This document shows positions 3,401 to 13,726 of a stretch of 60,043 bases of DNA, one piece after another; position 1 is the first letter of the stretch; the number at the start of each line of letters is the position of its first letter. The notes under the pieces are model-generated. The model had not been told where the DNA came from and ran no database searches. It was given only the letters and a program-made list of their open reading frames with translations. Both the position numbers and the translations under genes were made by a program. Origin of the DNA: a bacterium endosymbiont of Escarpia laminata (GTDB lineage: Bacteria; Pseudomonadota; Gammaproteobacteria; Chromatiales; Chromatiaceae); assembly GCA_003660235.1 (NCBI GenBank), contig QGON01000048.1:1-60043 (forward strand), read 5' to 3'.

Positions 3401-5019
3401 ATCATGATGCGGCAGAGCCATTCGCGGCTGATTTCTGAGCTGCCTATACGGCAGTGAACACGCGGAAGAGGCGGGGATACAGGCAAGTCCATTTCTGAGC
3501 TGCCTATACGGCAGTGAACCTTTTCGTTATCGAGAACCTCAATTTTCCTGCTTTCTGAGCTGCCTATACGGCAGTGAACATGGCGGCTATCTCGTTGATG
3601 CGGAAATGGACTTTCTGAGCTGCCTATACGGCAGTGAACGACATCGCACGAAAGATGAACGCCGCGCAGTGTTTCTGAGCTGCCTATACGGCAGTGAACG
3701 GCAAAACTCAAGCGGTTAACCAGTTGGGCCGTTTCTGAGCTGCCTATACGGCAGTGAACGTCCAGCAGCAGTTGCAGTTCGAAGCCTGTCTTTTCTGAGC
3801 TGCCTATACGGCAGTGAACCATAGGCAACAGCCGTTACGGAAGGATCAGCATTTCTGAGCTGCCTATACGGCAGTGAACAATTTAACGACGGTGCCGTTG
3901 CCATGCCGTTCTTTCTGAGCTGCCTATACGGCAGTGAACTTGGAGGACCTGAAGCGGGACTTTTTCGAAGATTTCTGAGCTGCCTATACGGCAGTGAACC
4001 TCTAGTGCTAGGCCAAGGCAGGCTGTATGCATTTCTGAGCTGCCTATACGGCAGTGAACAGCTGGTTCAGGCGAATATACTGGCTATTGATTTTCTGAGC
4101 TGCCTATACGGCAGTGAACTTCTGCCGTGCAGCCTTGCTGCCCCGCTTGATTTTCTGAGCTGCCTATACGGCAGTGAACTTATGGCGCGGCGCTTGCTGG
4201 TCTATCGGTTTTTTCTGAGCTGCCTATACGGCAGTGAACTTGGCGAAACCGAGGGCAGCGCCTTTATGGTCTTTCTGAGCTGCCTATACGGCAGTGAACG
4301 GGACGGCCTTAGCCTCTGCCGTTCTGATCTCTTTCTGAGCTGCCTATACGGCAGTGAACCTTTTTTCTCGCTAAAGCTCCAATCATCATCTTTTCTGAGC
4401 TGCCTATACGGCAGTGAACTTAACGGCTTGGGTTTTGCCGCCGCCCGTGGTTTTCTGAGCTGCCTATACGGCAGTGAACCATAAACAAATGCCATTTCGG
4501 CGGCGGGTTGATTTCTGAGCTGCCTATACGGCAGTGAACACAGAAAGGGGCCATCCGGCCCCTTTTCTTTTTTTCTGAGCTGCCTATACGGCAGTGAACT
4601 TCCAGGGCCGTTCACGAGGATACTACCGATATTTCTGAGCTGCCTATACGGCAGTGAACGGTGCTGCAGTTGCCTCATGCGCAAACCACATTTTCTGAGC
4701 TGCCTATACGGCAGTGAACCATCAGGTATTCCAGCAGTTGAGAGGCCAGCATTTCTGAGCTGCCTATACGGCAGTGAACTAAGCAGGCAATGCTTTTGCT
4801 TATCTCGCACTTTTCTGAGCTGCCTATACGGCAGTGAACCGGCAGAAGACCGTATCTTTTCAATCCAATGATTTCTGAGCTGCCTATACGGCAGTGAACT
4901 GTTTCGTGGCGCTGCAAATGTCAGGACTATCTTTCTGAGCTGCCTATACGGCAGTGAACCGCAACTACTGACTGATGAAGATCTGCGAAACTTTCTGAGC
5001 TGCCTATACGGCAGTGAAC
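432..5019 (-). CRISPR. Type I-F CRISPR array, 77 repeats and 76 spacers
   Basis: A 28-bp repeat recurs every 60 bp from 432 to 4992 with no break in phase, so all 76 spacers are exactly 32 bp. In the crRNA sense (minus strand) the repeat is GTTCACTGCCGTATAGGCAG followed by CTCAGAAA. This is the classic I-F hairpin repeat: a 5-bp stem CTGCC/GGCAG, loop GTATA, and an 8-nt 5' handle CTCAGAAA after Cas6f cleavage. Only the repeat at 432-459 is degenerate, with TGTC in place of TATA, marking the leader-distal end. Orientation follows from this and from the cas6f-proximal leader at 5020-5148. The newest spacer is therefore 4960-4991. Apparent reading frames across the array are translations of the repeat. 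Confidence 0.99.
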
Positions 5020-5715: not shown

Positions 5716-6756
5716 TCAGTCCTTTTCGCCGAATACGCCACCACGAATGAGATTGGCCATGACGTAGTGTTGTTGTTCCGGAGCCGGAGTCTCACCTTTG
5801 AGTACCCAGTGGTCGAGCAGGTTGTAGAAGTCCATCTTCTGTTTCGGCTGTCGATAGGCACGACCTTGGGAGGTAACAGAACCGTAGGGTTCCACGGCGA
5901 TGGGACCAAGTTCTTCGCCATCTGGATTGGGGTACCAAGTATCAATGGTACGCAGGGCGTTGCCGATTTTCTGGCTGTGCATGGCGGCTGTGTCGCCTAC
6001 CTTGTAGAGGGTTTTGCTTTTCTGTCCTTTTTTATCGCCTTTGTCGAGGATAAGTTCTTGGGATGGGTAGACTTCCTGGCCATCGCCCATACGCGCGTAG
6101 GTGGTGATTTCCAACAGGACAAATTCAGCGCCATCCAGCCCGTGCTTGATGACTTCGGCCAGCTCAGTCAGTTCATGGGCAGCGTCAGATGGTGCCTCAA
6201 AACTGCGCAAGGAAAAACTTGTGGCGTCAAACTTCCACTGTTTGACGGCCTCACCTTGTTGTAGATGGCGAATGTCGATCTCAATCTGTTCAGCTCCCAT
6301 TCGATTGCGCCATAAAAAACGGCCATTGGCGAGATTGTGCGCATAACGCTGTGCCAGATCGGTAAAACCGAGTTCATCCTTATACTGCTGAAGCGTACTG
6401 GAGAGTTTGCTCTGGTAATCAGCGTTATTGCAGGCGGAAGGGGTGCCCGCGCCACCAAGCACTCGCAGGGTAAAACGAACTTGCAATGTGTCTGCTTCAC
6501 TGGACAGAGTCGCAAAATCGACAGTCTGCAGGTTGGGATTCTGGATTGAGGCATCAAGCTTTGCCGGATCCTGATCCTTGGTTTTCAGGCGGTTTGAAAT
6601 AGTGCCGCGGACAGATTTCTCATTGATCTTGATGGCTGGCCAGCTGCCGGCATTGACCTGATCATCCCAACAACCTGCGCGAAACAGGGCATCAGATGGA
6701 TCCAGTTTGCGTTCAAAGGCGAGGACGGAGGCGGTTTTCAGTTCATTCTTGGCCAT
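5716..6756 (-). CDS. csy3: Type I-F Csy3 (Cas7f) backbone protein
   Basis: Csy3 forms the six-subunit backbone that coats the crRNA spacer and flips out every sixth base. The start is set at the ATG at 6754-6756 ([20 protein letters not shown]), which has an AAGGA site about 8 bp upstream and matches the family N-terminus; the frame stays open for 44 further codons upstream, overlapping csy2. The protein is 346 residues. It has the conserved [40 protein letters not shown] and [19 protein letters not shown] blocks and ends in the usual [10 protein letters not shown]. It lies between csy2 and cas6f in one operon. Confidence 0.98.
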
Positions 6757-6767
6757 GGTGCGATTCC

Positions 6768-7724
6768 TTATGCGTTGTTTAGGGTGTTGGCGTATTGATT
6801 GGTGCAACGGTAGATGCCGGTTTCGATATCGGCTTCGTGCCGCCATAGCAGTTGATTGAGTTCGGTCAGTCGATGAGGACTGATCCATTGACCCAGTGAG
6901 TAGAGGCTTTCGACAAATCGAAAAGGTGTCACTTCATCTCGGGCGTTGGTAACTTCACCAGATGAATAGAGGGGCGAGAGCGCGGCATAGCCAACGGGAA
7001 CCGGAACCAGCCAGCCGGGTTTGCTACGGGCCCTCCACAGGGTTTCACTTGGTTTTTTAGGATCAGGGCCGCTCGGCTCCATGTTCAGACGGGAGAGATC
7101 CATCAGTGCATCGAGCACAGTGCTCTCGGCATTTTGTGTGCGCATTTCCTGTAGATGCTCTACCAGCAGGTCTTCACGTTGAATCAGTGCGAAGCCGGGT
7201 AGCAGATGATGGCGAAGTTTGCGAAATGCGGTGATGTTGTCTGCTTCGTCATCCCACCAGCCAAACCACTCAGGTTGATGGCGTTTGCTATAACGGGGAA
7301 GAATGCTGCCACCGGCCAGACGCATGCTGTGAATGGTGGTTAGCAAACGTTCTGTCAACTCTGTTTGATCTTCACCATCCAGCTCGGTGAGTACTTCGAT
7401 CACCAGACTGATCTCCATGTGGGCGCGGGCCTCTTCGACCAGTGCAGCGGTCGCTCCGCTCCGGTTAAGCGGATTTCGTGTCAGACAAAAAACCTGATGC
7501 CGCCGGTTGGCTGGCTGTGAGACCTGCGGCTCAAAGTGATGGCAGACAATACCAATACCGCCAAATTCCAGATCAAATTCTTTGCTGAGTCGACGCTCCA
7601 GCGCATGAACAAAGCCGGTAAATGCAGTTGGCGATGGAAACCCCCAGGTGAATGGGCCGGAAATCGAATTGGCATTTTGCACCTGTAGGTGGGGAACAAG
7701 CAGTACAGCAGCGGTATTACTCAT
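6768..7724 (-). CDS. csy2: Type I-F Csy2 (Cas5f) protein
   Basis: Csy2 pairs with Csy1 at the 5' handle end of the crRNA and helps shape PAM recognition. The product is 318 residues and begins with the family pattern [20 protein letters not shown], then [17 protein letters not shown]. It contains GG-ILPRY and the PGFALI block. Its start codon overlaps the csy1 stop by 8 bp (7717-7724), indicating translational coupling. It ends 11 bp before the chosen csy3 start. Confidence 0.96.
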
Positions 7725-9024
7725 GGTAGTTCAGCTCCTCTCGCAGCATGCCCAGTTCTGCTTTTAATACACTGCGCCACTCTGTATTTTCCACATCACT
7801 CATGGAAGTTTTGTCGGTATTAAGGCGGGCGTTCAACCAGTTACCAAAACGGTCATAAATGGTTTCCCGCCAGTTGTTTTTTAAACGTGCAGCGGCAAAC
7901 TCCTTGTCATCCAGACCTCGATATGGATCCAACCAATAGCACTCGTCAGGGTTCAGACGGCAATCTTCGTGCTGGCTCCATCCCGGGGACGACTCACGTA
8001 GCTGGGCGGAAAGCTGTATGACTTCATCGACGATGGATGCGACTAATTCTGCGCGTTTGTCACGGATGTTGATGTTGTTTACCGGCTGGACCTTGACCAG
8101 GAAGCCTCGGAGGGCCTTGGTGAGTTGGTAGAGTCGTTTGTTACGATTCAGCCAGCGGTCAAAGATGCTATCGGTTTTTAGGGGCGGACTTATGCGTTCA
8201 CTTTTCCAACTGGGTGGAACAGCGGCCAGCAGATAGTTTTCACCGTATCGTTCACTGTTGAGCTGACTGATGTTTTGCGGTTTGGTGCCACCAAATTTCT
8301 GGATGGCGAAATTTGGGTATTCACGGAAACCCTGGTCGTGGGGCTGCTTGTTCCGGCGGGCTTCACGGGCAGCCTTGGCGGCTTCAGAGAAGCGGTCTTC
8401 GCGTATGCCGGTGTAAATTCCGTGTACTAAAGCGGTAGGAAAAAGCGGGGCCAGCAGGTGATATTCGTTGCTGCCCAAGGGCCAATAAAGTTGTTTGGCC
8501 AGTTTATGGGAGGTGGGTTCTCCTTTCGGTTCAGTGAGGTTGGCGAATGCGGCCATCCAGCTTTGTGCAACTTCCATGTCGGCAGATAATGCAGCGGCGA
8601 GTGCCGGTGCTGAATCACTGGCAAGGCGAAGTAGCGTCTTGCCGCTTACCTCCAGACGCAGGAATTTGTAGACATCGAGCGCCGCTGCATTCCCAACCAC
8701 ATCGGAGGGGGCTGAACCATTCAGCGTATGAGTGCCAACGAGATGTTCACCAGCCGCAGGATTACCCTGGCTATTCAGACTGGTGCCCTTGGCGTCTGGG
8801 TGGGTGTACTTGATGGCGTGAGTGACTTGCTGGATCTGTCCGACCCGCCGGGCGGCATCGGCTATCCAGGTTTCCGGTTGGTGTGCCTCCAGGAGTTTTT
8901 GACGCTTTTCGTCTTCACCCTCCTTGAGTTTGTCGAGCTTAGGTTGCAGGCGTTCCTGCAGAAATTGGTTGATGACGGCTTGGATGCGGGCGCTATCTTC
9001 AGATTGATTGATTGGTGTGTCCAT
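7717..9024 (-). CDS. csy1: Type I-F Csy1 (Cas8f) large subunit
   Basis: Csy1 is the large subunit of the Csy complex; it contacts the 5' handle and the CC/GG PAM. I place the start at the ATG at 9022-9024, with AAAGGA 7-8 bp upstream. The protein then has 435 residues, beginning MDTPINQSEDSARIQAV. Family blocks include FLQERLQPKLDKLKE, DAARRVGQIQ, SDVVGNAAALDVYKFL and IQKFGGTKPQNISQLN. It is the first csy operon gene and is preceded by a long untranslated leader of about 220 nt from the promoter at 9252-9280. An in-frame upstream extension to 9090 lacks a ribosome site. Confidence 0.96.
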   Translation of the reverse strand: MDTPINQSEDSARIQAVINQFLQERLQPKLDKLKEGEDEKRQKLLEAHQPETWIADAARRVGQIQQVTHAIKYTHPDAKGTSLNSQGNPAAGEHLVGTHTLNGSAPSDVVGNAAALDVYKFLRLEVSGKTLLRLASDSAPALAAALSADMEVAQSWMAAFANLTEPKGEPTSHKLAKQLYWPLGSNEYHLLAPLFPTALVHGIYTGIREDRFSEAAKAAREARRNKQPHDQGFREYPNFAIQKFGGTKPQNISQLNSERYGENYLLAAVPPSWKSERISPPLKTDSIFDRWLNRNKRLYQLTKALRGFLVKVQPVNNINIRDKRAELVASIVDEVIQLSAQLRESSPGWSQHEDCRLNPDECYWLDPYRGLDDKEFAAARLKNNWRETIYDRFGNWLNARLNTDKTSMSDVENTEWRSVLKAELGMLREELNYHE

Positions 9025-9074
9025 ACACACGTCCTTTTTGATTAATGGATTTATTGGAACTGATTGCTGCGTTA

Positions 9075-9108
9075 TCATGGTCCCGTGCAAAGTAGCTCGG
9101 GACCATGA
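9075..9108. repeat. Perfect 11-bp inverted repeat in the csy leader region
   Basis: TCATGGTCCCG (9075-9085) and CGGGACCATGA (9098-9108) are perfect inverted copies separated by 12 bp. The repeat lies in the csy1 mRNA leader, about 50 bp upstream of the start codon. It could be an operator or an RNA hairpin; the sequence does not decide. Confidence 0.6.
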
Positions 9109-9137
9109 GGCTAGACTCTTCTAACAAGGGGGTTGTC

Positions 9138-9215
9138 ATGCACCTCAATATCCTCCTAACCGCATCAAACCCTGGGGTTGGGATCTCGTCACATACGAGA
9201 TATTGCACACACTAA
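9138..9215 (+). CDS. Possible 25-residue small ORF on the strand opposite csy
   Basis: The plus strand has AAGGGGG (9126-9132), then five bases, then ATG. A 25-codon frame (MHLNILLTASNPGV and further) ends in TAA at 9213-9215, directly before a rho-independent terminator. The ribosome site and terminator spacing look deliberate, but the codons are few, no homologue is recognised, and I see no good promoter upstream. Small toxins of the CreT type sit beside repeat-like RNAs in type I loci, so this is a candidate to test rather than a call. It would be antisense to the csy leader. Confidence 0.25.
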   Translation: MHLNILLTASNPGVGISSHTRYCTH

Positions 9216-9242
9216 GGGGCGTTCCAGCGCCCCTTTTCTTTT
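9216..9242 (+). terminator. Rho-independent terminator, plus strand
   Basis: GGGGCG (9216-9221) and CGCCCC (9228-9233) form a stem with a 6-nt loop, followed by TTTTCTTTT. On the minus strand no T-run follows. It therefore points to plus-strand transcription entering from about 9100-9215, against csy. Confidence 0.7.
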
Positions 9243-9251
9243 GTGCTATTT

Positions 9252-9280
9252 ATAATAGAAGAGGAATTCAATATTGTCAA
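9252..9280 (-). promoter_or_regulatory. Promoter of the csy1-csy2-csy3-cas6f operon
   Basis: Read on the minus strand: TTGACA (9280-9275), a 17-bp spacer, then TATTAT (9257-9252). This is a near-consensus sigma-70 promoter. It points at csy1 and gives a leader of about 220 nt. The DNA directly upstream of the -35 box carries the pseudo-spacer match at 9281-9300. Confidence 0.8.
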
Positions 9281-9300
9281 CCAGGTATCTTATTAGCAGG
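9281..9300 (+). promoter_or_regulatory. Candidate Csy-complex target: CC PAM plus 18-bp partial protospacer
   Basis: CC at 9281-9282 is the type I-F PAM. The next 18 bases, AGGTATCTTATTAGCAGG, match the pseudo-spacer AGGTAGCTAATTAGTAGC (9377-9394) at 14 of 18 positions in exact register. Positions 1-5 are identical. Mismatches fall at 6, 9, 15 and 18, and positions 6 and 18 are among the flipped-out bases of a Csy R-loop. The site abuts the -35 box of the csy promoter, so binding should block RNA polymerase. Confidence 0.72.
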
Positions 9301-9314
9301 GCTATCTTATTACT

Positions 9315-9342
9315 TTCTCAGGAATTATGCCGATCATGTAAT
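9315..9342 (+). promoter_or_regulatory. Weak candidate promoter for the crRNA-like RNA
   Basis: TTCTCA (9315-9320), 16 bp, TGTAAT (9337-9342) on the plus strand. The predicted start near 9349 would place the transcript start at the first repeat-like hairpin. The -35 match is 4 of 6, so this is tentative. Confidence 0.35.
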
Positions 9343-9346
9343 AATG

Positions 9347-9475
9347 GTTCGCACTACCGCATAGGTAGTTTAGAAAAGGTAGCTAATTAGTAGCATTTAC
9401 TGCCGTATAGGCAGCCCTATCTTAGACAGGTAGCCCTACACTAGGGCGCTATTCATCGCCCTAGTGTCTTTTCTT
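9347..9475 (+). ncRNA. CRISPR-repeat-like RNA, CreR-type candidate
   Basis: Two diverged repeats flank an 18-nt pseudo-spacer. Repeat-like 1 (9347-9376) keeps a 5-bp stem CTACC/GGTAG in which the array's G-C pair is replaced by A-T on both sides, then the handle TTTAGAAA (9369-9376). The pseudo-spacer is 9377-9394. Repeat-like 2 (9395-9414) keeps ACTGCCGTATAGGCAG, identical to the array over 16 bases. Cas6f cleavage after G9368 and G9414 would release a 46-nt RNA: 8-nt handle, 18-nt guide, 20-nt hairpin. A perfect terminator follows. The guide matches the csy promoter flank at 9283-9300. RNAs of this design (CreR, CreA) are known to direct Cascade to cas or toxin promoters; the assignment here is inferred from sequence. 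Confidence 0.75.
9438..9475 (+). terminator. Terminator of the crRNA-like RNA
   Basis: ACACTAGGGCG (9438-9448) and CGCCCTAGTGT (9457-9467) form a perfect 11-bp stem with an 8-nt loop, followed by CTTTTCTT. The T-run is on the plus strand only, so it terminates the crRNA-like transcript rather than cas2-3. It overlaps the cas2-3 stop codon by two bases and resembles the terminator at 9216-9242. Confidence 0.8.
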
Positions 9476-12400
9476 ACGTGTACCGGCTGAAACCCAAACT
9501 CGGATGATAATACCAACCCTGATCGCAGCCTTTTTCGGGTAGATCCACTACGCCAAACTTCCTGGCGCACTCCGCAGTCCCCATCCCCAGAGATTCAGCC
9601 AATGCTTCCAGTGCGCCCTCATAATCAGGTTCGCCCCAGAAGTTGATACGGGGGCCGGGTTCCAACTGGATGTCGTGCTTGAGTCCGTCCTGCTTAGTGG
9701 TTCCACCTTCCCGCTCGAAACGACGAAATTCAATCTCGTCATCCTCATTCGGCAACAGGCCGTAGCGGCGTCGGCCTTGGGGGTCTTTACGAAAGCGTTG
9801 TTTGCGTTGCAGCTCGCCGCTGAGATTTGCGCGGGTGTTGCACCATGCCTGCACAGAGGTCTGGCCCGGCATGCCCGGAAACTTTTCATCCAGCATCAGA
9901 GCGCGCAAGCGGGCGTGTTCGAGATCAACCAGATTTTGCTGGGGCGTGAGCGGGTCACGTTCCCGAATACGGGCGCTGGCGTCGATACGCGCGAGTTGCC
10001 CTGTTGTCAGCAGGTCCGTTAGATGATGGCGCTCAAGCAGATATCGCTCACCTTCAAAGCCTGGGCGGTAGAAGGCAGGCTTTGTTGATCCCCGTTCAAG
10101 ATGACGAACATTGGTATCCAGCAGATGAATATTAGGTGTTTCACAAATCTCATCACGGTGACGGCAAACTCGACCGGCAAGCTGAATGATGGAGCGCATG
10201 GATGAGGGTTCAACAATCGCCCAGTCGTAGTCGTGATCCCGCCCTACTTCGGCGACTGCGGTGGCGAGAACAATGAATATCTGATCCTGTTCTGCATATC
10301 GATCAAGCCAGCCACGCATCTCTTCATCCTGAAAAATCGCCCCTGGGTCTTTGCGGTTAAGCAGTCGATCCAGACGTTTTTCTATGCCGGAACGCACTAA
10401 CAGTGGATGTTGGGAGTGATAGATACAAAGGTGGATGCGCTGGTTTTTTTCCGCTCCCAGTGCATAGATGGACTCAGCCACGTTTACCAGTGGATTTATG
10501 TTGGCCATGCGGATCAGACCGAAACTGACGTGCTTGCCGGTTTTCGGATCTTGATTATGGTGGTGTGAGTGCAGCTTGGGTATTTGCTCAAGCAGAGATC
10601 TGGCCAGATCCTGGCAGATCAGCTCACGGATTTGTCCCTGGGCGATGGACAGAGGATGGATGATGGCCTTGCGGCGCTGTTTGGCCTCTGCCAGTTTTAT
10701 CAGCCGTTTTTCGACGAAGCGATGGTGTGCTTGTTGGAAGCTGTCGTCCTCAGCGTGATCGCTGGTCCCGGCATTGTATTCATCAAACCAGGCACAGCAG
10801 ATGTTGAGTGGTTGTCCCGGCTCACCCCGATTCTTTTGATAGATGCGCCGCCCCTCACGATAGGCCTGAAACAGACCCTGAATCAGGGCGGGTGGCAGAG
10901 TGGCGGAGGAGAGTAAGACCTTGCCGCCGAGCAGTCCGGTCCAATGTACCAGCCGGGTGAGGGCTGGCAGGTCTTCCAGGCCAAAATCATCCGGCTCGTC
11001 CAGTATCAGATCCGATGTCATCAGACGCAGCATAGGGGCTATCTGCTGGCCGCCCCGGGTGCCTTCAGTCGCAGGGATAAGATGGTCGATAGTGCTGATA
11101 AGAATGGGGGCGTTAAGTAGTTTTTGGGCGTCAGGGGTTTTCTTCAGCCATTTGTTGAGGGGGCCATCTTCCAGACTGCCCTCGAAGTGTACAAAATTCT
11201 GTTCGGCCAAGAGTGATTCGCTGGATTCGCTGCCGGCCTGCTCCAATTTTCCCTGCTTTTGTTGATGCTCATGCAGCTGTCTAATAGCGCCGCCACCGAC
11301 CAGAACGGCCATGTCTTCAGCGCCCAGCCCCAGACGCTCTCGGTAGGCATCGCCAGTTTGTAGCGTGAGGGCGCGTAACCCCAGGGCGATGTTGAATCTT
11401 GCGCCCTGTTGTGGATGCGCCAGTGCATAGAGAATACGGCCATTTGCGAGGGTCTTGCCGCAGCCTGTAGAGGCCATATTGACACCGAAAAACCCCTGTT
11501 TTCCGGCGCGGCTTTGTAGCCCACCCGCCAAGTCGAAGGCCCTGTCTTGCCAGCGAAAACGCTTGTCGCGGCTGCGTTGACGGAAACCCTTATGACGGGC
11601 AATGCGTGGCATCTGTTGTTCGAGATGCGGCAAGCTGCGAACAATGCGGGAGGCATTCACCTCTACCCCAATGAGATGTTCATCCAATCGCTGTTTTGCT
11701 TTGCCTGTATCACGGTCGGTATTGGCGATCAGCGGGTATCCAGCATCACCGTAGCGCGGATGGCTGGGTTCACTGGAGTAGAAGTGATCCGCCAGCATCA
11801 GCGCCATGCGGGAGAGATGCATTACGTAGGGATCATCCAGCCAAGGCGTTTCGAGTAGCGTGGTGCGTTTCAGCATCGCCTGGGCGATTCGGCAAACATG
11901 TTGCCGCCAGTGTTTGCTGTTGAAGGGGATGCCTTTGCTGAATTTCCAGCAGGCCGCCCTTGCCTTGGAATATTTCGCGCTGGATTCTTCGTCACGTCTA
12001 TTTCTGGCCCCACACCAACCAGCGGGAATATTCTCCGGCAGTTTTTCCAGTGTAGAGGTTCTAATGCCATCATCTGAAATAGGGTTTGCTGGCATTCGAT
12101 GATGGGAGAGGATTAACCAACCGACGGCTTGAGCCAGTGGTGGTAGTTTCTTCAGGGGCGCGGGAGTCTTTTGGTCGATGCCGTCACGCTGCAGCTTTTT
12201 TTGCCAGGTCTTATCTTCAGCATCGGGTAGTTCGACCAGACGTTTCAGCCACGTGGCATCATCATCCACGCCAACAAATGCCTCGAACAGGCGCAGTGAA
12301 ACCCACTCATGGCGGTAGGCATCTGCCAGGGGTTTGTTTCCTTTTAGCTTCTCCTGAAATGCCTGATTGGCCTTACCTAAATCGTGAAACAGGGCGGCGA

Positions 12401-12752
12401 GCGAGGTCAGTAGTCGAATATCTTCCGCGTGATGCCAGTCGTTTTCATCTTGGCTGCGTAACACATCACGCTCAGTGGTGTTTGTCGGCGTTCCACCTTG
12501 ATCGTTAAAACGACGATTGTCACCCACAACCCAGATCAACTCGCTGTGATCCTTGCCACGAATCCACAGACAGGCAACCGAGGTGTTCTTTCGCGCCGTC
12601 TTGCGCAACATGCGATGCAGGGTTACCAGTCCTTGCCGGGTGATTGCAGTTTGCCAGCTCCGATCACCGCGCCGTTCAGCAAACTGATCCAGAATGCGTC
12701 GGGTCTCCTTGAGCGCATTTTTACTGCATTGGGAGATGAGCATCACGTTCAT
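9474..12752 (-). CDS. cas3: Type I-F Cas2-Cas3 fusion nuclease-helicase
   Basis: The fusion joins Cas1 for spacer acquisition and is recruited by the Csy complex to unwind and degrade target DNA. The protein is 1092 residues. An N-terminal Cas2-like domain fills about residues 1-95. An HD nuclease follows with HH at 107-108 and LFHDLGKAN at 122-129. The helicase has Walker A STGCGKT (428-434), DEPD (585-588), SSATLP near 615-620, and motif VI QLAGRVCRH (857-865). The ATG overlaps the cas1 stop in an ATGA arrangement (12749-12752), so the two are one operon. No key residue appears lost. Confidence 0.97.
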   Translation of the reverse strand: MNVMLISQCSKNALKETRRILDQFAERRGDRSWQTAITRQGLVTLHRMLRKTARKNTSVACLWIRGKDHSELIWVVGDNRRFNDQGGTPTNTTERDVLRSQDENDWHHAEDIRLLTSLAALFHDLGKANQAFQEKLKGNKPLADAYRHEWVSLRLFEAFVGVDDDATWLKRLVELPDAEDKTWQKKLQRDGIDQKTPAPLKKLPPLAQAVGWLILSHHRMPANPISDDGIRTSTLEKLPENIPAGWCGARNRRDEESSAKYSKARAACWKFSKGIPFNSKHWRQHVCRIAQAMLKRTTLLETPWLDDPYVMHLSRMALMLADHFYSSEPSHPRYGDAGYPLIANTDRDTGKAKQRLDEHLIGVEVNASRIVRSLPHLEQQMPRIARHKGFRQRSRDKRFRWQDRAFDLAGGLQSRAGKQGFFGVNMASTGCGKTLANGRILYALAHPQQGARFNIALGLRALTLQTGDAYRERLGLGAEDMAVLVGGGAIRQLHEHQQKQGKLEQAGSESSESLLAEQNFVHFEGSLEDGPLNKWLKKTPDAQKLLNAPILISTIDHLIPATEGTRGGQQIAPMLRLMTSDLILDEPDDFGLEDLPALTRLVHWTGLLGGKVLLSSATLPPALIQGLFQAYREGRRIYQKNRGEPGQPLNICCAWFDEYNAGTSDHAEDDSFQQAHHRFVEKRLIKLAEAKQRRKAIIHPLSIAQGQIRELICQDLARSLLEQIPKLHSHHHNQDPKTGKHVSFGLIRMANINPLVNVAESIYALGAEKNQRIHLCIYHSQHPLLVRSGIEKRLDRLLNRKDPGAIFQDEEMRGWLDRYAEQDQIFIVLATAVAEVGRDHDYDWAIVEPSSMRSIIQLAGRVCRHRDEICETPNIHLLDTNVRHLERGSTKPAFYRPGFEGERYLLERHHLTDLLTTGQLARIDASARIRERDPLTPQQNLVDLEHARLRALMLDEKFPGMPGQTSVQAWCNTRANLSGELQRKQRFRKDPQGRRRYGLLPNEDDEIEFRRFEREGGTTKQDGLKHDIQLEPGPRINFWGEPDYEGALEALAESLGMGTAECARKFGVVDLPEKGCDQGWYYHPSLGFSRYT

Positions 12753-13726
12753 GATGAATCGTTCCCAAGCTCAATGGCCACGGCTTTAAGCGTATCGATC
12801 ATGAAATCCAGGGATTCGCTACGAGTGAGGGATTCGATACAAGCACGGCGAAACTCCTGCTCTTCATGACCGGCCATGGCAGAGATGAACGCCTGGGGCA
12901 GGATCACCGCATCCTTGATCAAGTCTGCCGCATCGAATACCAGACCACCCCGCCTTGTCTTGCCATGCAGTACCGCCAGCCCGTGGGGTAGTCCGAGTAC
13001 CCAGGTGGCGGTGGCTCCCAATCCGTAAGCCAGGTAGTTACCGTGGTCAAGAAAGCGATTGGCCGGATCGGTGCCTGTACCTTTCTTTGCCCGCACAAAA
13101 TCGCCGTAGCCGACGGTCTGTACAGCCAGCTTGAAGAGCTGTTTGGTCAGCCGGGCCTCTGCGGTGAGCAGAGCCGTTACATCTATTGCATCTTCGATAC
13201 TGTTGAGCGTCCCGCTCAGCAGTGTTTCAAGACGCGCAGGGTCGATTGAAAATCCGCTGTCCGCCAGCGCGCGATTCTTCAGCCAGTGATTTTGGAGTCG
13301 ATCAATGCGGGTGCGCTGGATTATTTTCGCCGCCTCAAGGCGCCGCTCATCGTCAAACCAGAATTTTACCCAGGCCTGAAGGTATTCGGTTGGGCGATAT
13401 TCACTTTGGGGTGAGAACCAAATGATGTCAGTGTCTCGCTCGACGCCACTAAACAGGGGCGTTCCTCCTCCACCACTGAATCCGACAAGTACGCCGGCTT
13501 TTGCCAGTTCTCGCATGGCCGCCTGTGTAATCGAAGTACCCGTACCCAACAAAATCGAGGTGGTGTTGGCGATGGGGATGTTCCAATAGAGAGAACGTTT
13601 GCCCTCATCGGTGACGTACTCAACCCGTCCGCCATTGACCAGCACACGACAGTGTTCCAGGTAGTAAAGATTGGCGCGCTTGGAGTGGAGTATTGTTTTC
13701 AGGTCAGAGGGAGAAAAGTCTTCCAT
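12749..13726 (-). CDS. cas1: Type I-F Cas1 integrase
   Basis: Cas1 forms the integrase complex with the Cas2 domain of Cas2-3 and inserts new spacers at the leader end. The product is 325 residues. The metal-binding residues fall at Glu190, His254, Asp265 and Asp268, the same positions as in P. aeruginosa Cas1. The N-terminal KRANLYYLEHCRVLV and IPIANTTSILLGTGTSIT blocks are typical of I-F. It begins the cas1-cas3 operon and is divergent from hsp20. A short palindrome at 13791-13803 lies in its upstream region. Confidence 0.97.
   Translation of the reverse strand: MEDFSPSDLKTILHSKRANLYYLEHCRVLVNGGRVEYVTDEGKRSLYWNIPIANTTSILLGTGTSITQAAMRELAKAGVLVGFSGGGGTPLFSGVERDTDIIWFSPQSEYRPTEYLQAWVKFWFDDERRLEAAKIIQRTRIDRLQNHWLKNRALADSGFSIDPARLETLLSGTLNSIEDAIDVTALLTAEARLTKQLFKLAVQTVGYGDFVRAKKGTGTDPANRFLDHGNYLAYGLGATATWVLGLPHGLAVLHGKTRRGGLVFDAADLIKDAVILPQAFISAMAGHEEQEFRRACIESLTRSESLDFMIDTLKAVAIELGNDSS

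Follow-up and report, generated by a model that had tools for sequence, protein, structure and literature searches.

A probable CRISPR-guided repression switch beside the type I-F cas genes of an Escarpia laminata endosymbiont, and a near-copy of its guide in a prophage

The stretch of DNA analyzed here (the window) comprises 60,043 nucleotides of contig QGON01000048.1 from a bacterial endosymbiont of Escarpia laminata, and hosts a type I-F system of clustered regularly interspaced short palindromic repeats (CRISPR). Its cas2-3 and csy1 genes are separated by a gap of about 450 bp, where a mini-CRISPR element sits on the + strand. Judging from comparison with related loci, this locus is probably a CRISPR-guided repression switch of the type I-F CreTA kind, in which the CRISPR effector would repress the promoter of a toxic small RNA, CreT, here of a tandem-AGA form. 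That the effector acts as a promoter repressor is well supported by the co-variation of guide and target, and is a mechanism of a kind already known, since both CreTA-type and CreR-type systems have been published. The new element is a copy of the guide carried by a prophage, in a genome whose own CRISPR array matches that same prophage.

The mini-CRISPR, its target and the transcript that it would control are composed of the following parts, of which the promoter and the terminators are predicted from sequence:

9347 to 9376, + strand: degenerate repeat PsiR1, with the 5' handle TTTAGAAA (Rfam CRISPR-DR4, 30 bits, under the gathering threshold of 35)
9377 to 9394, + strand: pseudo-spacer (the guide) of 18 nt, AGGTAGCTAATTAGTAGC, the same in the related locus L012
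9395 to 9422, + strand: degenerate repeat PsiR2, with the hairpin CTGCC GTATA GGCAG intact (Rfam 19 bits, under the gathering threshold of 35)
9438 to 9475, + strand: intrinsic terminator-like site 3' of the mini-CRISPR, an 11-bp stem followed by CTTTTCTT
9281 to 9300, + strand: CC protospacer-adjacent motif (PAM, 9281-9282) and partial guide target (9283-9300), AGGTATCTTATTAGCAGG, by direct reading
9252 to 9280, - strand: promoter-like TTGACA-17-TATTAT (11 of 12 consensus bases), which precedes the creT-like RNA and, as no terminator was detected, csy1
9076 to 9243, - strand: putative creT RNA, with a 5' end inferred from the promoter
9235-9214, 9157-9152 and 9107-9076, - strand: parts of the creT-like RNA, namely stem-loop 1, the Shine-Dalgarno sequence AGGAGG and stem-loop 3
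9111 to 9143, - strand: mini-open reading frame (mini-ORF) of 33 bp, GTG CAT GAC AAC CCC CTT GTT AGA AGA GTC TAG

A sequence-only reading of this DNA had claimed that the guide matches 14 of the 18 positions of 9283-9300 directly behind CC, next to the -35 box of a promoter, and direct reading confirms both the match and its position. The five seed bases are identical as claimed, and the mismatches fall at positions 6, 9, 15 and 18, two of which (6 and 18) are every-sixth, flipped positions. No other of the 8542 CC-flanked 18-mers in the window scores as high, the runner-up reaching 12 of 18. When the guide was shuffled with its dinucleotides preserved, 91 out of 20,000 versions reached 14 of 18 behind a CC in the intergenic region (approximately 0.005). 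The pattern CCAGGTANCTNATNAG has one site at zero mismatch in the genome (4.25 Mb), the window target itself; with one mismatch there are five more, compared to three for the reversed control pattern. As is characteristic of CreTA, the guide pairs in part with a site that lies behind a PAM at the adjacent gene's promoter, and two repeat-like elements with a Cas6f hairpin flank its short spacer. Compared to the array repeat, the hairpin of PsiR1 reads CTACC/GGTAG instead of CTGCC/GGCAG, a compensatory double change that preserves pairing.

We carried out the comparison of guide and target across relatives that the sequence-only reading had proposed. Regions upstream of csy1 were taken from the family of the window (22 of 210 genomes with Csy1; the order-level sample consisted of the same 210 genomes), from its class (34 of 369) and from a Pseudomonadaceae sample (23 of 378), plus three more loci. 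Of 52 upstream regions, 22 contain a mini-CRISPR (that of L018 was detected only with a wider loop), as does one of 22 Pseudomonadaceae regions; with L184, from 60 larger regions, the total is 24 loci. We left out of the counts L005 and L199, which are the L012 locus, and L079, which is the window; csy1 fragments lacking the upstream region (L008, L023, L030, L032 and L034) and the fragments L137 and L139; class matches without locus sequence; a hairpin of L012 on the cas3 side; and, in L167, a spacer of an ordinary array. The ranking of guide sites disregarded positions 6, 12 and 18, where mismatches were neither rewarded nor penalized.

All 24 guides have a CC-flanked match on the same strand of their own locus, with 12 to 15 of the 15 non-sixth positions identical, while the 538 swapped pairs of guide and locus score lower (6 to 12 of 15). 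Mismatches are absent from each of positions 1 to 5 (0 of 24 loci), occur at positions 6, 12 and 18 in 19, 16 and 18 of the 24 loci, where unconstrained bases would give about 75%, and amount to 25 of 360 at the remaining positions up to 17. The 24 loci are not all independent, because the window and L012 form one lineage and the guides of L025 to L028 are related. Across relatives, the match between guide and target exceeds chance. In evolutionary terms the picture is clean: a Csy guide can drift freely at every sixth base. In L184 the guide/target pair (approximately 6286-6400) is separated from the downstream csy1 by about 4 kb, where a cas1 gene would be expected to start. In L014, L015 and L018 the loop of the PsiR1 hairpin spans 23-36 nt and the spacer approximately 29-33 nt, unlike the short-spacer forms.

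The transcript downstream of the target also resembles CreTA. The mini-ORF is preceded by a strong Shine-Dalgarno sequence and is divergent from creA, and it has the two consecutive rare codons and stem-loop of archaeal CreT, with AGA AGA at codons 8-9 and an 11-bp stem at 9107-9076 that is not followed by a U-run and after which csy1 comes next. Few codons are as rare as AGA in 11 genes of the window (15 of 4974). We examined creT in 23 of the 24 loci (L184 was left out) and found a Shine-Dalgarno sequence with an in-frame AGA AGA in six of them, representing five lineages (the window, L012, L017, L020, L080 and L085). Between the window and L012 the stop codon has changed from TAG to TGA and the length of the ORF has not; the corresponding ORFs of L017, L080 and L085 are 12, 11 and 9 codons long, and in L084 AGA AGA is located past the stop codon. 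Once aligned, the creT-like RNAs have a mean column identity of 55%. In L076, TTA TTA occupies codons 8-9 in place of AGA AGA, and its RNA is perhaps a leucine-tRNA version. Overall, the guide, the target, the PAM, their co-variation, the repeat hairpins and the conservation of the mini-ORF are established here.

From these elements we infer how the switch would be processed, bind, repress and exert toxicity. Csy4 would cut the transcript of the mini-CRISPR (9347-9475, + strand) to yield CreA, an RNA similar to a CRISPR RNA (crRNA) with the 18-nt guide. CreA would load a shortened Csy complex, which would bind the CC-flanked partial match beside the -35 box and block the - strand promoter, the short guide and its mismatches favoring binding over cutting by Cas2-3. 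The first product of this promoter would be a CreT-type toxic small RNA that ties up the AGA-decoding tRNA and stalls translation, and loss or inhibition of Csy would release it. In the current view, CreTA puts a price on inhibiting CRISPR in this way, the toxin firing once Csy is blocked.

Several observations weigh against a CreTA switch in the window. The mismatches at positions 9 and 15 are unflipped. The promoter-like site at 9280-9252 is the only sigma70-like promoter listed in 9000-9560, but shuffles of the region average 1.2 such sites, and the count is therefore no evidence by itself. AGA AGA does not directly follow the start codon as it does in Haloarcula hispanica, and in L020 the ORF extends to 30 codons. 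Of the start-codon stem known from Acinetobacter sp. WCHA45 (nucleotides 1-4 with 12-15), two of four pairs are present (G1-C15 and G3-C13); this stem, however, defines one CreT subtype and not CreTA as a whole. Finally, 12 of the 23 loci have a target within approximately 200 nt of csy1 and no Shine-Dalgarno-preceded AGA AGA ORF, and L089, L092 and L098 have a longer spacing with other content. Because these 12 loci are without such an ORF and three more differ, repression of csy alone can maintain the element. The 12 loci are better explained by pure autoregulation of the CreR type, in which the guided Csy complex would tune csy1-4 to the load of crRNA and anti-CRISPRs and the leader of about 220 nt would be no toxin. 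The single promoter-like site upstream of csy1 and the lack of a listed - strand terminator before this gene are also in agreement with CreR. For the window we nevertheless regard CreR alone as unlikely, given the recurrence of Shine-Dalgarno sequence, AGA AGA mini-ORF and stem-loop in five lineages and the preserved ORF length despite the altered stop codon. Moreover, an additional ORF and a terminator-like hairpin (read by eye) intervene between creT and csy1 in L080, so that the guide of this locus probably does not act solely on csy. It is hardly conceivable that the element is the decayed leftover of a short array, resembling the promoter by chance. The short spacer, the degenerate repeats and the single-locus chance given above would suit such a remnant; the in-register site in every mini-CRISPR locus and its absence from swapped pairs, the compensated hairpin and the element's own terminator-like site would not.

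With a CreTA switch as the preferred reading, repression of csy is likely a by-product of the module. The sequence-only reading had taken the promoter to be that of csy, with the Csy complex repressing its own operon. The co-variation, which that reading had itself set as a refuting test, lends strong support to the guide, the PAM, the logic of flipped bases and an action at the promoter, whereas the creT-like RNA in between had been overlooked. Autoregulation of csy may still hold in the window, given that csy1 lies further along that strand and a terminator scan found no - strand terminator between the promoter and csy1; for the same reason csy1-4 are probably co-repressed. Across loci, two outputs, the toxin RNA and csy, seem to depend on a single guide system, and the guide of the window probably serves both. 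In L092, the interval from target to csy1 has no creT-like RNA but a small ORF of about 60 amino acids, possibly a CreP-like protein toxin.

When the genome was searched with the intergenic DNA of the window, one other place was found (contig C5 13738-13777). It lies in a prophage that encodes a primase, SSB, a repressor and an integrase adjoining tRNA-Leu, and whose left end runs beyond the contig. The mini-array found there and the spacers of the window array that match the prophage are:

C5 13739-13795, - strand: prophage mini-array (L003), composed of CTGCTGAACAAGCAG CTCAGAAA, the guide AGGTAGCTAATCAG and a second repeat
3880 to 3911, - strand: array spacer, perfect match with CC PAM at prophage C5 8693
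1540 to 1571, - strand: array spacer, 1 mismatch, CC PAM, at prophage C5 8744
1420 to 1451, - strand: array spacer, 2 mismatches, CC PAM, at prophage C5 4245
1000 to 1031, - strand: array spacer, perfect match with CC PAM in the prophage integrase, C5 17801

The mini-array has a promoter-like TTGCAA-17-TATTTT just upstream (read by eye), and its second repeat is followed by a hairpin that resembles a terminator and has a T-run. A Lar-like restriction-alleviation gene (~0.5 kb) and an excisionase-like gene, both under the cut-offs, lie near it. Its guide is identical to that of the host at 13 of 14 positions, and the lone difference is at the flipped position 12. Over 18 nt the two sequences differ further at 16 and 17, and over 17 nt they share 13 of 15 non-sixth positions. 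Against the window target the prophage guide scores 11 of 14 (mismatches 6, 9 and 12) and only 11 of 18 when the comparison is extended to 18 nt. Its handle CTCAGAAA is the exact handle of the strain's array repeat, from which the handle of the host PsiR1 differs. In 53 Csy1-matching genomes, the mini-array pattern was found in seven places: five times in host cas loci, once in an ordinary array and once in the prophage, the only mini-array found away from a cas locus. The pattern overlooks repeats that are degenerate, those of the window's element among them. The match in G183 appears to be an ordinary array unit, and in G293 a second hairpin occurs by chance in an ordinary array.

Since perfect self-targets together with working cas genes are expected to be lethal, CRISPR is presumably held down in this strain. 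Matches to the spacers were sought in the retrieved viral contigs, in the window outside the array and in a 40-kb part of contig C5. We consider the chances even that the prophage encodes a CreA mimic, an RNA with the strain's Csy handle and a guide close to that of the host, which would be anti-CRISPR and antitoxin in one. This RNA would fill Csy complexes and so block crRNAs, and would park Csy on the creT-csy promoter and so keep the toxin off. The guide copy is most simply understood as a counter-measure. If this is true, the phage would meet the CreTA trap directly, with a guide copied from the host antitoxin, and this would explain how the prophage coexists with two perfectly matching spacers.

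Two other explanations have to be weighed against a CreA mimic. The mini-array could be an RNA anti-CRISPR (Racr) decoy only, with its guide incidental or captured in the past. Racrs are described as repeat mimics that inhibit type I-F (PMC10651486), the handle equals that of the strain's repeat, and the guide matches the target at 11 of 14 and just 11 of 18 positions. This we hold to be possible but doubtful, because the guide differs from the host's only at a flipped position over 14 nt, its sole unflipped target mismatch in that length (position 9) is also present in the host guide, and the target pattern occurs a single time at zero mismatch in the genome. Alternatively, the prophage could survive through an unrecognized anti-CRISPR protein or silent cas genes, with the mini-array unrelated. 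None of 20 prophage ORFs matched an anti-CRISPR family in NCBIfam, where many such proteins may lack a model. We lean away from this explanation also, which leaves the shared guide unexplained and has to contend with six cas proteins that all score above their cut-offs. The search for phages related to the prophage gave four loci, all of them weak or distant and lacking a GCAG-NNN-AGAAA repeat, and the mini-array had only two short matches of 21-24 bases in the phage collection.

A pattern for short-spacer I-F mini-arrays matched 38 IMG/VR contigs (L035-L072), which may reflect the same mimic strategy in other hosts; one of them, L071, is close to P. aeruginosa phages. Of 42 distinct spacers measured in these contigs, 22 have a repeat-to-repeat gap divisible by six, as is the canonical 36, a count made without a control. 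Some guides recur between contigs (L052/L060/L071, L042/L059 and L035/L063). A looser repeat pattern returned 43 stretches, many of them coding, where L203, L212, L215 and L225 resemble further mini-arrays. We compared the viral guides with regions upstream of csy1 (52 at first, 74 later) and with 64 larger cas loci, with shuffles run in two of these three comparisons. The 48 guide occurrences (38 viral contigs and the prophage) matched these sampled loci no better than shuffled guides, and generality is therefore a lead only; the hosts of the viral contigs are probably missing from the sample. The top match, from L051, was repeat-like sequence. A Pseudomonas-phage guide pattern with sixth bases free gave 23 viral matches, near chance by a rough, control-free estimate. 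No mimic of the window or L080 guide was found in IMG/VR, where one match had no repeat hairpin in view, and the mini-array of L038 had no match in E. coli. No phage-borne CreA or CreR mimic appeared among the literature matches listed, mostly titles and abstract starts, with preprints outside the scope.

The - strand of the window encodes the type I-F set cas1, cas2-3 and csy1-4, with all six proteins exceeding their NCBIfam cut-offs. The neighboring features are:

7717 to 9024, - strand: csy1 (cas8f), TIGR02564, followed by csy2, csy3 and csy4
9474 to 12752, - strand: cas2-3, TIGR02562, the neighbor upstream of the mini-CRISPR element
12749-13726, - strand: cas1, TIGR03637
432 to 5019, - strand: CRISPR array, parsed into 77 repeats and 76 spacers, with the repeat GTTCACTGCCGTATAGGCAGCTCAGAAA

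An array spacer (4558-4571) and the start of the creT-like RNA (9229-9242) have 14 nt in common, AAAAGAAAAGGGGC, without a CC PAM; this overlap is probably due to chance.

The closest tested system is the type I-F CreTA of Acinetobacter sp. WCHA45 (Wang et al. 2023; PMC10097628). Like the window, it occupies the cas3-csy1 intergenic region and has two repeat-like elements with a Csy4-type hairpin, a CC PAM and a divergent, Shine-Dalgarno-preceded mini-ORF of 33 bp downstream of the target. Its guide of 20 nt pairs except at positions 6, 11 and 18, and its target is downstream of the promoter, whereas that of the window is upstream of the -35 box (PMC10097628). According to that report, its CreT acts through a start-codon hairpin, incomplete in the window, and a loop able to pair with 23S rRNA; the tandem AGA of the window has no mention in its main text, the sequence figure aside. 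In this respect the window matches the tRNA-sequestering recipe described for the archaea H. hispanica and Halobacterium hubeiense, which consists of a Shine-Dalgarno sequence, a start codon, a pair of adjacent rare codons (AGA or AUA) and a stem-loop that is stable (PMC8501985). The AGA codons of H. hispanica directly follow the start in that account, those of the window at codons 8-9. Racrs and the prophage element are both phage-borne repeat mimics near a promoter and Racrs are active against type I-F, but a Racr is a solitary repeat unit in a search that set arrays aside (PMC10651486), while the prophage has two repeats around a 14-nt guide. CreR is described as a crRNA-like RNA that guides the effector to the promoter of its own cas operon, senses competition by crRNAs and anti-CRISPRs and is generally uncoupled from a toxin gene (PMC12737573); the window has a creT-like element of putative toxicity. 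The window would be similar to CreR in that a crRNA-like guide would lead the effector to a promoter that may serve the cas operon; csy1 lies downstream on that strand, but behind the creT-like RNA. Phage phiTE reportedly supplies an RNA that mimics the antitoxin of ToxIN, a type III toxin-antitoxin system. This is a phage RNA antitoxin such as we propose for the prophage, without a CRISPR guide; the prophage mimic, if true, would merge RNA anti-CRISPRs with antitoxin mimicry.
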